Origin: Tessaracoccus rhinocerotis
GTDB taxonomy: Bacteria > Actinomycetota > Actinomycetes > Propionibacteriales > Propionibacteriaceae
DNA length: 64,000 nucleotides
Assembly: GCF_007197885.1 (NCBI RefSeq)
Contig: NZ_VKKG01000001.1
Coordinates: forward strand, 642,334-706,333
Reading direction: 5' to 3'
Below, piece after piece: positions 23,930 through 29,903 of the stretch (its first letter is position 1; each line of letters starts with the position of its first letter). The position numbers were made by a program, and so were the translations under genes. The notes under the pieces were generated by a model. The model was given only the letters and a program-made list of their open reading frames with translations, searched no databases and was not told where the DNA came from.

Positions 23930-24011
23930 GGCTGTTGAACTTCTTTCTCACACCGGTTTCCGAGCTTTGTGCGGACCTGGCGCGTTGGAAATCTTGTAGT
24001 GGGGTCGATCC

Positions 24012-25228: not shown

Positions 25229-25597
25229 TCAGATCACCTCGGGTGCCAGGGAAATGATGCGCATGAACTTCCGCTCGCGCAGCTCACGGGCCACGGGGCC
25301 GAAGATGCGGGTTCCGCGGGGTTCGCCGTCGGCCTTGAGGATGACGGCTGCGTTCTCATCGAACTTGATGTAGGAACCGTCGGCGCGGCGACGTTCCTTG
25401 CTGGTGCGCACTACGACAGCCTTGACGACCTCGCCCTTCTTGACGTTGCCGCCGGGGATTGCGTCCTTGACCGTGGCGACAATGGTGTCACCGACGTAGG
25501 CGTAACGACGCTTCGTGCCACCGAGAACACGGATGCAAAGGATCTCCTTGGCACCAGTGTTGTCGGCGACCTTCAGTCGCGACTCCTGCTGGATCAT
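25229..25597 (-). CDS. rplN: 50S ribosomal protein L14
   Basis: The product is 122 aa. L14 binds the silencing factor RsfS and forms bridges to the 30S subunit. The start [19 protein letters not shown] is clear, with a TTTCTCC/GGAG-type site before it. In most bacteria rplN follows rpsQ directly; here it is separated from rpsQ by a plus-strand three-gene operon and must have its own promoter in 25,598-25,888, which I could not identify with confidence. Confidence 0.98.
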
Positions 25598-25827
25598 TGT
25601 TTCTCCTCCGTCCGACTGGTTCCCGCGAGGGGGCCTGTGTCGGAACTTGTGATGAACCCCCTGGATTTTGCCAGGAGGCGCCCCGAACCAGGGGTACGGG
25701 GTTCCGTCGCCCGGGAAAGGTCCCCGAGCACGCGAGTACCCGGGCACAGACCCAAGACAACTTGACAAGCGTACATCACCCAACCCAAGCCGATGAAATC
25801 GACCGTGGTGGCGCCTCCCCCGGCGGG

Positions 25828-25888
25828 TTCTCCACAGGGAGGGCGTCGGCGTGACGGATCGGGGCGGCCGGCAACCAGAGTCTGGGGT
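25828..25888 (+). promoter_or_regulatory. Leaderless promoter element shared with the 62.4-kb locus (copy A)
   Basis: In order the element contains a DnaA-box-like TTCTCCACAG (25828-25837), GTGACG (25851-25856, a plausible -35), a 19-nt spacer, and CAGAGT (25876-25881, a plausible -10), then 7 nt to the ATG at 25889. The same parts, with the same -35/-10 spacing, lie before the gene at 62,480. Confidence 0.55.
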
Positions 25889-26869
25889 ATGACTGACTAC
25901 AAGGTACTTCCACCGCCTCTGGTGACCCACGCCGGTCTCCGGGGAGGCGTGTTCACCAACTCCGACGCGACTCGCTTCGGCCTGCGCGGGTTCACCGCGG
26001 CGCTGCGCTCCGGGGAGTGTTTCCGGGTCCACCCCGGGCTCTACAGCCTCCATCCCGAACTGGACGTCGCCGGCCGCATCTGGGCCGGGCTCAAGCTCGG
26101 TGGCCCGGCGGCCACCCTGGGGCTCGGCGCGGCCGCCTGGGTTCGGGGGCAGGGACCGGAACCCGATGTCATCGACGTCTGGTGCGGACGGCGCAACCTG
26201 AAGGACCGGGGCCCGTGGCGGTTCCACAGCGGAGAGCCCGACGAGGTGCAGTCCTGCGAGGCCGTGGACGAGGCCTTCGGCAGGTTCCTGCTGTCCCCGA
26301 CCGCAGACGCCGGTCTCGCGCGGAAACTGGCGGGCCGGGCCCTCAGGCTCCGGGACCGGGAGCGGTTCCTGGAACTTTGCACCGCCCCCCGGGCCGAGGG
26401 ACGCAGCGCCTTCGAGACCGCTCTCAACCGCGACGTCCTGCTGGCGCACGGGCTGCCTCTGCTGGAGTGGGCCCCGCTGCCCGACGGCACGCAGCACTCC
26501 GTGCGGGCGGCCCTGTTCGGCGTCGACGTCAACCTGCACTTCGACGGGTCGCTCACCGGGCGCAACCTGCGGCCGAGCTACGGGTGGATGGGCCGACCAC
26601 ACCACGACGACCCGGAGGAGCCGCAACTGTTCGGCTGGCCGGACGTCCTCGAGACACCCTGCCTCGTCGCCGGCAAGATTGCGCGGCGGCTGCGGGCGCG
26701 CGCCTGGCAGGGCGAGGTCCTCGACTGCCGCAACTGCACGCTGTCCCCCTCCGCGTTCAGCATGATGCGCGAGGAGGACGGCCGCAGCCTGACCGAGTGC
26801 CCCACCTGCGGCTCGCAACTGGTCCAGCTCTGGCGCATGCCCGAACGCAGGGAGGCCGCGCTCCGATGA
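25889..26869 (+). CDS. AbiEi-like winged-helix / DUF559-like protein with C-terminal zinc ribbon
   Basis: The product is 326 aa. Residues 17-53 ([20 protein letters not shown], then [10 protein letters not shown]) match the N-terminal DNA-binding domain of AbiEi-type antitoxins. Residues 172-275 follow the outline of a DUF559/Vsr-like nuclease fold ([49 protein letters not shown]), but active-site residues are not obviously kept. A zinc ribbon follows (C280, C283, C304, C307). The ATG at 25889 is chosen for its leaderless promoter context. The stop overlaps the ATG of a surface-protein gene, so this presumably cytosolic DNA-binding protein is coupled to a sortase system. Its role is unproven; regulator and defence-related nuclease are both possible. 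Confidence 0.6.
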
Positions 26870-28842
26870 GACCCGACTGGAGAACCCCGCTGTCGGCGGT
26901 GGTCGTCCTCGTGCTCGGCCTGGCCCTGCTCCCCTCGGCGGCGGGTGCGCGGTCCCAGGACGGGGACCTGGCCGGCTCCGGCCACCCGATGCCCACCCGC
27001 TCCCACCCCGAGCACTGGTACGGCGCCAAGAAGCTGGGCGAGGTGACCGCCTACTGCATCGACCTGAACTCCGGCCCGCCGCGGGAGGCGAGCGCCTGGA
27101 CCGAGTACACCAACTACACGCTCCACCGCCAGACCGGCTGGGGCGGCCCCCGGGGGGAGCACGGCAACGGAACCCGCAAGACGCTGGTGGCCGAACTGGC
27201 CGAACTGTCCTGGATCCTGCACGAGACCGGCCCCTCCCCCAGTCCGGACGTCGGCGCAGCGGTGGAGCACGCCGTCCGGCTGCGGACGCTCGACGGCACG
27301 GCGCAGGAGCGGAAGGAGGCGGACCGGTGGTCGGCCGTGTCAGGGGCACATCCCGGCACGGTCACCGAGTTCGAGCGCCTGCAGCGGGAGGCCGACGCCT
27401 TCGCCGGTCCGTACACCCTGGACATCAGGTGGAACCGGCGCCCTTCGTCGTCCAACGCGACCGGCGAGCTGGCCATCAGGGTGCTTGCCGCCTCCGGCGC
27501 GCAGGTGCCCGGGCGACACGTCACCACTCGTGGCAGCGGAGCGCTGGAGGTCACCTCGACCACCCGCAGCACCGGCCCGGAGGGCACGACCCGCGTGTGG
27601 GTGCAACTGCCCGTTCCGTCCGATCGGGCCGTCACCGGCGCCCTCGACGTCGAGGTCTCCGGTCTGCCCGGTCCCCGGCCGCGGCTCTTCGTCCCGAGGG
27701 AGAAGACGATCCAGCGCATGATCGCGGCTCCTGAACCGGTCACGATGTCGTGGCGAGACGAGATCCACCTCGAGCCCGAACCATGGCGCCCCACCGTCAC
27801 AACCCGGACCAGGGACGTCATCGCATCCGCGGGTGGGGCGGCCGTCGACGTGGTCACCGTGGCCGGGGGTAGGCCCGGTCACGGGTTCTCCGGCCAGAGC
27901 ACGCTCCTCGGACCCTTCGGCACGCTCGAGGAGCTCGCGGCGGCATCCCCGGACACCGCACCAAGTGTCGGGGTCGCCACGTTCACCGGAACCTATGACG
28001 ACGAGGGGTCCGCCGAGGTGCACACGAGCGCCCTCGAGTTCCCCGGACCCGGGTACTACTCGTGGCGGGAGCGCTTGGACGAGGCCGAACTGGTGCTGTC
28101 CCCCGAGCCGCCCTCCTGGCCGCAACTGTCGGAGACCAGCGTCGTGCTCGCACCGTCCGTGAGCTCCGAGCTGGTGGTCACGGGCGCCCCACGACTGGGC
28201 GCGACGGTCTCCGACACCCTCCGCGTGGCGGGGTTGCCGGACGGGCGTGAGGTACCGGGTTCGGAGGTACCCCTGCTGGTCCATGCCTCGGGTGAACTCC
28301 TGGGGCCCATGCCCCCGGTCGAGACCGAGGGTGGACAGACCTGCGACGCCGTCGACTGGCGGGGAGCACCGGTCGCGGCGACGTACGAGGACGTAGAGTT
28401 GCCCGGGCCGGTTCTCGAGGGGCTCCTGCGGACGAAGCTGGAGGACCCCGGCTGCTACACCGCGACGGCCCTGCTCAGCGTCAGCCACGCGGGCGGTGTG
28501 GTGGCCGAGGTCATGCATGGGCCCGGACTGGCCAGCCAGAGCGTCCTGGTCCCCGATCCACCCCGGGAGACTCCGCCTCCGGTTGTCCCGACACCTCCGA
28601 CCGGCCCGACCCCACCTGTGGCGACCTCGCCACCACCCACAGCGACCACCCCTCCCGCCGAAGTGCCCCCGCCGGTGCCCACTCCGCCGCCAGTCACAGC
28701 GCCGCCTCCGGAGCCGGAGACCCCGCGCATCAACTCGGGAGCCCCCATCCGGGAGGTGCGCTGGCAGCTGGTGCACGTCGGCCTCGCGATCGGTCTGCTG
28801 GCATTCGCGACGCGGGTCCGAAGGTCGGGGCGCAGGCCGTGA
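26866..28842 (+). CDS. Thioester-domain-like, sortase-anchored surface protein
   Basis: The product is 658 aa with a signal peptide (1-28). [13 protein letters not shown] (58-70, C64) resembles the Cys motif of Cys-Gln thioester adhesin domains. The partner motif, usually Q-A-x-W, reads AAVEHAV (131-137), with Glu where Gln is expected, so the thioester may not form. The middle (about 190-560) is predicted beta-rich and unassigned. A Pro/Thr-rich stalk (about 565-615) leads to RINSG (621-625), a hydrophobic segment (633-648) and a basic tail (RVRRSGRRP). This is a cell-wall sorting signal in form, but with RINSG in place of LPxTG. It overlaps both neighbours (ATGA, GTGA), and the next gene is a sortase, its likely anchoring enzyme. 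Confidence 0.7.
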
Positions 28843-29552
28843 CCGCACCTCGGAGGGCGGCACCGCCGGTGGGGCGTTCCCCGTCAACCCGGCTGCTCGA
28901 CTGGTGCCGGACGGCGTGGCAGCCCGCCGCCCTGGCCGCGGCAGCGTGCCTCGTGGTGGCCGGACTCTGGCCCGGGCCAAGTCAGCCACCGGCGCCCGCT
29001 CCCGAGGCCCCCGGCGCACAGGTCACGGCACCGGTCCGCCCCTCGGCCGGGAAGCCCGAGGAGACGACATCCGCCCCGGGCGACGGGACGACCCCGGCTC
29101 CGACCGCGACGGTGGCCCCTGCCACCCCCTCGCCCCGGCTGATGGTGGCCTCGTTGGGGATCTCCGCACCGGTGCGGGAGGTGGGCGTCGTGGGCCAGGA
29201 GCTGGAGGTCCCCGAGGATCCGGGTGAGGTCGGCATCTGGCGCGACGGTGCCCGGCCCGGCGATGACGCGGGGACCGTCCTGGTGACCGGCCACGTGAGC
29301 TGGGACGGGCGGCGTGGAGCGCTGTGGTCGTTGGCCGCCGCAGGCCCCGGAGACATCATCGACCTGCTCACCCCTGACGGGGACGCCTCCCGGTGGCGCG
29401 TGGTCTCGATCGACCGGCTGCCCCGGGACGCCGACCACCCGGAACTGTTCACCACCGACGGGCAGCATCGCCTGGTGGTCGTGACGTGTGGCGGCCCGGT
29501 GGTCGACGGCCACTACCGCGACCTGGTGCAGGTGGTCGCCGTCCGGAAATGA
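28839..29552 (+). CDS. Class F-type sortase
   Basis: The product is 237 aa. A membrane segment (about 29-45) and a Pro/Thr-rich linker precede the catalytic beta-barrel. Catalytic residues are H152 (VTGHVSW), C217 (VVVTCGG) and R227 (GHYRDLV). Spacing and the compact core fit class F (or closely related class E) sortases of actinobacteria. It starts with GTG within the stop of the surface-protein gene, strongly suggesting a dedicated enzyme-substrate pair. A strong hairpin ends the operon. Confidence 0.85.
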   Translation: MTAPRRAAPPVGRSPSTRLLDWCRTAWQPAALAAAACLVVAGLWPGPSQPPAPAPEAPGAQVTAPVRPSAGKPEETTSAPGDGTTPAPTATVAPATPSPRLMVASLGISAPVREVGVVGQELEVPEDPGEVGIWRDGARPGDDAGTVLVTGHVSWDGRRGALWSLAAAGPGDIIDLLTPDGDASRWRVVSIDRLPRDADHPELFTTDGQHRLVVVTCGGPVVDGHYRDLVQVVAVRK

Positions 29553-29554
29553 CG

Positions 29555-29586
29555 AGAGGGCCCCGGGATCCATCCCGGGGCCCTCT
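29555..29586 (+). terminator. Bidirectional terminator between sortase gene and rpsQ
   Basis: A perfect 14-bp stem (29555-29568 with 29573-29586, loop TCCA) starts 3 nt after the sortase stop and lies 20 nt from the rpsQ stop on the other strand. It insulates the inserted operon from the ribosomal cluster and ends the S10-rpsQ transcript. Confidence 0.85.
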
Positions 29587-29606
29587 GCGTCGGTTCTACG
29601 AGTGCG

Positions 29607-29903
29607 TCACTTGGCGCGCTCGGTGACCTCGACCAGACGCCAACGCTTGGTGGCGGACAGCGGACGGGTCTCCATGACGCGGACACGGTCGCCGATGCCG
29701 GCGCTGTTCTCCTCGTCGTGGGCCTTCAGCCGCGTGGTCTTGGTCATGACCTTGCCGTAGAGCGGGTGCTTGACGCGGTCCTCGACGGCGACGACGATGG
29801 TCTTGTCCATCTTGTCGCTGACGACGATGCCCGCGAGCACCTTGCGGCGGCCACGCTCGGTGGTCTCGGCCGTGGTGGCCTCGGTGGTGGATTCTTCACT
29901 CAT
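29607..29903 (-). CDS. rpsQ: 30S ribosomal protein S17
   Basis: The product is 98 aa. S17 is an early-assembly OB-fold protein. It has a Thr/Glu-rich N-terminal extension ([18 protein letters not shown]) before the canonical [19 protein letters not shown]. It is the last gene of the S10-rpsQ transcript; the next gene in most bacteria, rplN, lies 4 kb away across the inserted operon. Confidence 0.98.

Follow-up and report, generated by a model that had tools for sequence, protein, structure and literature searches.

Variable Cargo at the rpsQ–rplN Junction in Part of the Propionibacteriaceae and a Candidate uS8-Binding Leader of the spc Operon

Gene Organization at the rpsQ–rplN Junction

The operon located between rpsQ and rplN is, taken as a whole, best explained as a single set of cargo genes occupying an insulated slot where the S10 and spc operons meet, a reading that is given a probability of about 0.75. 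The sequences show that the cargo at this junction differs between species and that both borders are conserved, namely a hairpin after rpsQ and a −10-like box plus leader before rplN. The passengers probably vary at the junction because spc is transcribed from a promoter of its own and begins with a structured RNA leader. Taken by itself, the set of three genes adds a modest new member to kinds already known.

The window, which is the whole stretch of 64,000 nucleotides that was analyzed, corresponds to positions 642334–706333 of contig C1 (1.09 Mb) in a draft genome of 3.55 Mb (G000). In rplX, the closest of the named relatives is a MAG from the Propionibacteriaceae (81%), which makes this the probable family. 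The relevant features of the window are as follows.

23941..23986, minus strand: similar hairpin, immediately upstream of rpsH (uS8)
25229..25597, minus strand: rplN (uL14), which opens the spc half
25595..25765, minus strand: conserved leader RNA ahead of rplN (model R1), with the rplN ATG at its end
25606..25648, minus strand: the leader's core hairpin, carrying the AA-bulge motif
25768..25773, minus strand: −10-like box TACGCT, conserved, no sigma-70 consensus match
25795..25800, minus strand: GATTTC element upstream of the −10-like box, conserved, possible −35
25889..26869, plus strand: AbiEi/DUF559-like protein, 326 aa, C-terminal CxxC...CxxC (Cys 280, 283, 304, and 307), all profile matches below cut-off
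26866..28842, plus strand: secreted surface protein, 658 aa, with a weak Ig-like signal, a Pro-rich stalk, and a hydrophobic tail
28729..28743, plus strand: INSGA, candidate sorting motif ahead of the hydrophobic tail
28839..29552, plus strand: class-F-like sortase, 237 aa, GTG start, with His152, Cys217, and Arg227
29555..29586, no strand assigned: terminator-like hairpin between convergent genes, perfect and GC-rich
29607..29903, minus strand: rpsQ (uS17), which closes the S10 half

The preliminary description of three plus-strand genes, joined by ATGA and GTGA overlaps and lying between rpsQ and rplN, was borne out in coordinates and strands. The start that it gave, 25828, is 61 bp upstream of the preferred start codon at 25889; a longer reading of the first gene, from 25793 and 358 aa in length, is also open. 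The trio is not an assembly quirk, since G026, a different species of the same genus, has the identical three-gene set in the same order and at the same place.

Junction Size and Cargo in Related Genomes

The genes rplN and rpsQ were searched in 146 genomes (the window's own and 145 relatives), and the distance was computed when both were on one contig. The gap was measurable in 134 of the 146 genomes, the remaining 12 being G013, G014, G015, G018, G024, G029, G035, G036, G048, G064, G075, and G083. The gap data include partial matches to rplN in G039, G040, and G079 and an rpsQ split over two frames in G008. In the genus of the window, the gap exceeds 1 kb in 30 of 31 measurable genomes and ranges from 1.4 kb to a maximum of 24.7 kb, with a genus median of 4.8 kb. 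A near-empty site of 352 bp appears in G025, with no cargo gene called and both the hairpin and the leader kept. Gaps above 1 kb were found in 13 of 44 measurable genomes from other genera of the family and in 0 of 59 measured genomes from three sister families, where the maximum is 185 bp. For a separate collection of 80 named loci, 78 were measurable and every gap is 300 bp or less. The habit of carrying an insert therefore belongs to part of this family. The proposal of a tolerant site was supported, although the tolerance is confined to part of one family.

We take the junction to be the boundary of the S10 and spc operons as in E. coli, and an insert placed there would therefore not need to break transcription. 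In the available part of PMC10931766, uL14 is listed first in the spc operon.

Genes were called in 49 stretches using a simple purpose-made caller, which gave 225 cargo proteins, 156 of them in the genus of the window. A Pfam scan covering 30 of the 225 identified FtsX-type exporters, sugar and betaine transporters, ferritin, a DEAD helicase, CinA-like proteins, glycosidases, a LacI regulator, a two-component system, rhodanese and TauE proteins, and holin-like and DUF families. The cargo types mostly track clades, as judged by eye on a rough tree of 30 genomes; a patchy exception is the c24-c25-c26 block in G003 and G038, which stand apart on that tree. The surface protein is present at the junction in nine species, always on the strand opposite the ribosomal genes, and its identity tracks that of the ribosomal proteins with a Spearman coefficient of 0.70 (35 of 36 pairs). 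Such a falling pattern of identity would be expected for old residence with many losses.

Borders of the Insert

The best 44-nt fold of the window's hairpin has an energy of −39.7 kcal/mol versus −18.7 ± 3.2 kcal/mol for 60 mononucleotide shuffles. In all 31 stretches of the genus with an rpsQ call, which leaves G008 and G029 outside the count, the best hairpin within 90 nt after rpsQ ranges from −28.5 to −46.5 kcal/mol. Eight of these hairpins were tested with 60 mononucleotide shuffles each, and every one lies below all of its shuffles. The sequence TTTT occurs within 90 nt after rpsQ in only 8 of the 31 stretches. A scan of 25400–29900 for consensus elements returned no terminator and no sigma-70 promoter. 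The window's hairpin, originally proposed to be a strong bidirectional terminator, has no T run. On the rplN side, the −10-like box reads TAnnCT in most cases. Given the negative consensus scan and the scarcity of TTTT, termination and initiation at the two borders are putative. Transcription of S10 would end at the hairpin after rpsQ, and transcription of spc would restart at its own promoter, so that the DNA in between could be gained, lost, or exchanged at little cost.

Leader RNA of rplN

The structured leader conserved ahead of rplN is approximately 165 nt in length. RNAalifold gave −92.7 for 35 leaders versus −48.7 ± 4.2 for 30 column shuffles. With the structure derived from the same alignment, 40 cells are changed on both sides versus 9.9 in the shuffles, and 12 pairs carry such changes versus 4.5. 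Model R1 matches 62 of the 146 genomes. All but one of the 39 genus genomes (38) are among them, the other 24 come from elsewhere in the family, and the sister families have none; the assembly of the sole genus genome lacking a match, G035, has no rplN match. The matched places adjoin rplN in 63 of 64 cases. Since weak leader matches, overlapping rpsQ, were also obtained for G076 and G062, two genomes of the family without an insert, the leader alone does not bring insertion. The notion that the leader is confined to loci with an insert was dropped in light of the R1 matches and of the hairpin pattern in the named loci (see below).

Rfam returned no credible family for either leader region or for one Streptomyces and one Nocardioides region. 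The leader combines conserved structure and covariation just before a ribosomal gene, by which ribosomal-protein leaders are recognized, and the candidate ribosomal leaders described in the available text of PMC7247131 are likewise structured RNAs before ribosomal genes. The terms L14, uL14, rplN, and S17 are absent from the main text of that paper, and a leader of rplN is neither named in the accessible portions of two papers on candidate RNAs nor found in the literature searched.

Related Hairpins before rplN and rpsH

In most actinobacterial loci examined, rplN is preceded by the leader's core hairpin. This 3′ hairpin has the form GUUCCGCCAGG-stem-GAACCGGC with an AA bulge, and the pattern was found before rplN in 67 of 80 named loci. 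At stem positions 3–6, 318 of 384 cases pair versus a mean of 57% with exchanged partners, a figure that is inflated because stem length was one of the criteria by which matches were chosen; 113 of 126 sequences gave a match, a few of them plainly spurious. When one fixed structure was imposed on 51 pattern-chosen sequences, 73 cells were changed on both sides versus 24.5 in shuffles, and 84.1% of the cells pair versus 75.5%; five outer pairs fail, each in 16 to 21 of the 51 sequences. At E 0.01, a model of the hairpin, R2, matched 30 genomes among 296 from the phylum, and some of these may be species of its training set. Match and rplN coincide at the 12 best of these loci and at none of the 18 weaker ones. 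Under strict filters, R2 missed the window's own genome, and such filters thus lose true cases.

In G019 and L055, a second match to R1 is located approximately 1.55 kb downstream of the rplN start, directly before rpsH. In 76 of 87 loci, the hairpin pattern lies no more than 60 nt from the start of rpsH, versus 1 of 88 for rpsN, 0 of 86 for rplF, 0 of 88 for rplX, 1 of 85 for rplR, and 13 of 88 for rplE, these control regions being largely coding sequence and hence not fully matched. The Streptomyces match at rpsH has a short inner stem and a long loop. For the analysis of covariation, 36 sequences were aligned from a set of 38 that was already free of duplicates, of sequences longer than 62 nt, and of those lacking AGGUC...GAAACC, the columns of which are constant by this selection. 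At the other pairs, 76 cells are changed on both sides versus 28.6 in shuffles, 86.9% are paired versus 67.7%, and the covariation is 0.437 versus 0.133. A double change occurs in 8 pairs, no excess over the shuffles (7.5), and pair 8–49 fails in 22 of the 36 sequences.

The two hairpins share a core that consists of a G-C pair, a two-nucleotide bulge ending in A, and then U-A/C-G. The core of helix h21 in 16S rRNA is defined by a G-C pair, a two-nucleotide bulge ending in A, and U-A and C-G pairs. The sequences are GGUC/GAAACC for the rpsH element, GGCY/RGAACC for the rplN element, and, in the window's own 16S rRNA, CGUCG/CGAUACG for h21. C-G replaces U-A in the rplN version. The uS8 site of 16S rRNA is h21 (PMC10931766, available part), and uS8 is the first candidate ligand because the hairpin core resembles the organism's own h21. 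The leader is a probable site of feedback on the spc operon, with uS8 most likely as the ligand, and the hairpins before rplN and rpsH constitute a candidate uS8 feedback system. As described in the same part of PMC10931766, autoregulation of the E. coli spc operon by uS8 relies on an element of the spc mRNA that mimics the uS8 site in h21; the E. coli site is at rplE, whereas the hairpins reported here, candidates for such an element, precede rplN and rpsH. That part of the review states that spc regulation in B. subtilis or other species is unknown.

A more extended proposal, held with a little less than even confidence, is that two uS8-binding hairpins, before rplN and rpsH, control the actinobacterial spc operon. 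In some Propionibacteriaceae, the rplN element would then have gained its own promoter and a longer leader, cutting the S10–spc supercluster in two and making an insulated slot for cargo out of a junction that is among the most conserved in bacterial genomes.

Surface Protein and Sortase

The cargo in the window consists of a surface protein and a class-F-like sortase, plus an AbiEi/DUF559-like neighbor. The sortase scores 40.2 bits against Pfam PF04203 (cut-off 26.6) and has the active-site residues His152, Cys217, and Arg227. The enzyme, initially described as class F-type, is called class-F-like only, because its score against NCBIfam class F (NF033748) is 63.1 bits, below the curated cut-off of 166. 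A thioester reading, also proposed initially for the surface protein, was dropped, as no thioester profile was found among 13 members (Pfam, E 0.1). Cys64 is invariant in 13 of 13 members, and a partner Gln was not identified. Profile searches gave a weak Ig-like signal only. Structure prediction for the 658-aa protein alone provided a mean pLDDT of 39.1. The profile of the 13-member alignment gave only two weak matches in the PDB, with E values of 0.18 and 0.37, both to the Pro-rich stalk. Protein P0002, used as the query against the genome contigs, returned no relative.

Matches to the surface protein occur in 16 genomes; nine of these hold such a pair (G029 being seen in part), six of them outside a mobile region. 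A sortase is present in 39 of 39 genomes of the genus. In G052, G057, and G039, a relative of the surface protein (27–30%) is followed by a class-F-like sortase beside comEC-type genes, which have a Competence or metallo-beta-lactamase domain, and in G085 the same two genes are found in a different setting. The pair thus looks like a real module, since its relatives adjoin in four other genera at places outside the junction. G011 and G031 share the mobile region as near-identical DNA, at 99.95% over 10.5 kb and at 99.91% over 4.5 kb, and G029 has 3.8 kb of it, which reaches into the sortase gene. The region encodes a 1310-aa VaFE/T-Q protein with a match to residues 307–569 and a class-F-like sortase, together with type IV conjugation genes in the G011 and G031 part.

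Candidate sorting motifs were read by eye. INSGA or INSGD, followed by a hydrophobic stretch and a basic end, appears in G000 and G026, and LPSTG[RA] is located at the very C-terminus, with no hydrophobic stretch, in G003, G019, G022, G030, and G031. Elsewhere, the candidates are IRAGG (G039) and ISTGA (G085) with a tail, IRSGA (G057) and IPSG (G052) with no tail, and PPGTGR (G029); none was found in G038. The class-F-like sortase would most likely attach the surface protein to the wall through the candidate motif INSGA. The AbpA–SrtB system of oral streptococci, as presented in the available part of PMC4974636, likewise has a secreted protein beside a sortase, and its short sorting signal, which lacks a tail, is a precedent in the literature. 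The protein and the sortase class are different there, and the window's protein has a hydrophobic tail whereas several of its relatives do not. The pair, with its relatives that lack a membrane tail, is a case for comparison with AbpA–SrtB.

AbiEi-like Gene

The sole close relative of the AbiEi-like protein among the 146 genomes is found in G026 (59%), and the second CxxC is confined to G000 and G026 among eight aligned sequences. More distant relatives are widespread, occurring in 66 of 146 genomes when the window's own is counted. The relation to DUF559, which we presume from the alignment read by eye, is accompanied by no profile match. The match to AbiEi_4 has an E value of 0.075 and 13.6 bits versus a cut-off of 25, PADLOC returned no match for this gene, and its neighbors are the surface protein gene and rplN and not an AbiEii toxin. 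A toxin–antitoxin reading was dropped on these grounds. With one close relative only, the suggested role as the operon's own regulator is unsupported.

Discussion

The preliminary description tied a functional module to the co-location of its three genes in related genomes. The pair of surface protein and sortase is so located in four other genera, whereas the trio is found in two of the nine species with the surface protein at the junction; six have neither neighbor, and the contig of G029, which covers the rplN side only, ends 0.4 kb past the surface protein gene. By that test the pair stands and the trio does not. If all three genes formed a module dedicated to surface display, with a regulator included and with selection keeping it at this site, the ATGA/GTGA coupling and the same trio in G026 would be accounted for. 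Such a module is nevertheless improbable, given these species and given that in the four other genera the pair had no AbiEi-like gene next to it (4 kb covered in G085) and that AbiEi-like genes lie at the junction with no surface protein in G023, G035, and G057.

Two further explanations concern how the cargo arrived. Surface protein and sortase pairs do move, since the conjugative region shared by three species carries a related one, and a site-specific mobile element directed at rpsQ–rplN could have brought the cargo. This is very improbable: no integrase, recombinase, or transposase was identified among the 30 scanned proteins of the 225, the cargo types follow the tree by eye, and the distances of the surface protein follow the ribosomal ones. 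Homologous recombination within the conserved ribosomal flanks, by which species would exchange cargo, is the less unlikely of the two, although still unlikely; the flanks supply the homology and blocks such as c24-c25-c26 are patchy, but much of the cargo fits descent plus loss. An insulated slot at the S10–spc boundary is preferred over these readings.

Known insertions at operon boundaries likewise place nonribosomal genes in this cluster, bfd-bfr between str and S10 being one of them. The available parts of the sources describe selected events in Gammaproteobacteria and Bacilli, whereas in the genus of the window almost all measured species carry cargo, of varied kinds, at a single junction. 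Of more value than the operon itself are the slot and the paired hairpins, the latter being the best by-product of the analysis. The slot suggests a route by which a near-invariant ribosomal gene order opens harmlessly, and some thirty natural insertions are at hand with which this may be tested.

A near-identical region (99.9% among three species) encodes a surface protein of VaFE/T-Q type together with a class-F-like sortase, with type IV conjugation genes in the portions seen. The L147 copy carries an additional rve-type transposase insertion. In three other genera, the surface protein/sortase pair is adjoined by comEC-type genes and, at two of the three loci, likewise by helix-hairpin-helix comEA-like genes. 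The loci are as follows.

L146 3169-18072; L147 3642-19901; L049: near-identical region
L142 7752-13003; L143 8260-11743; L144 6874-12175: pair adjoining comEC-type genes
L144 2202-4364; L150 and L186 (G003 and G057 junctions): rhodanese-type and TauE-type gene pair
Window 23941-23986 (-); L055 1706-1747: rplN-leader-like hairpin directly 5′ of rpsH

The rhodanese-type/TauE-type pair is found within the rpsQ-rplN cargo slot of G003 and G057. In G039, such genes apparently also lie close to the surface protein pair, as judged by inspection of the sequence. Five surface protein orthologues (L150, L163, L166, L172, and L173) end in LPSTG plus one residue, and the membrane tail is absent from all five. 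The C-termini of the G057 and G052 relatives are IRSGA and IPSGIPGGE, respectively.

The hairpin preceding rpsH is of the rplN-leader kind; its covariation (alignment A5, 36 loci) was detected, and it is a candidate uS8 site.

The 352 bp rpsQ-rplN site of G025 (L168) lacks cargo and retains both the hairpin after rpsQ and the rplN leader. This site is a natural "before" or "after" state.
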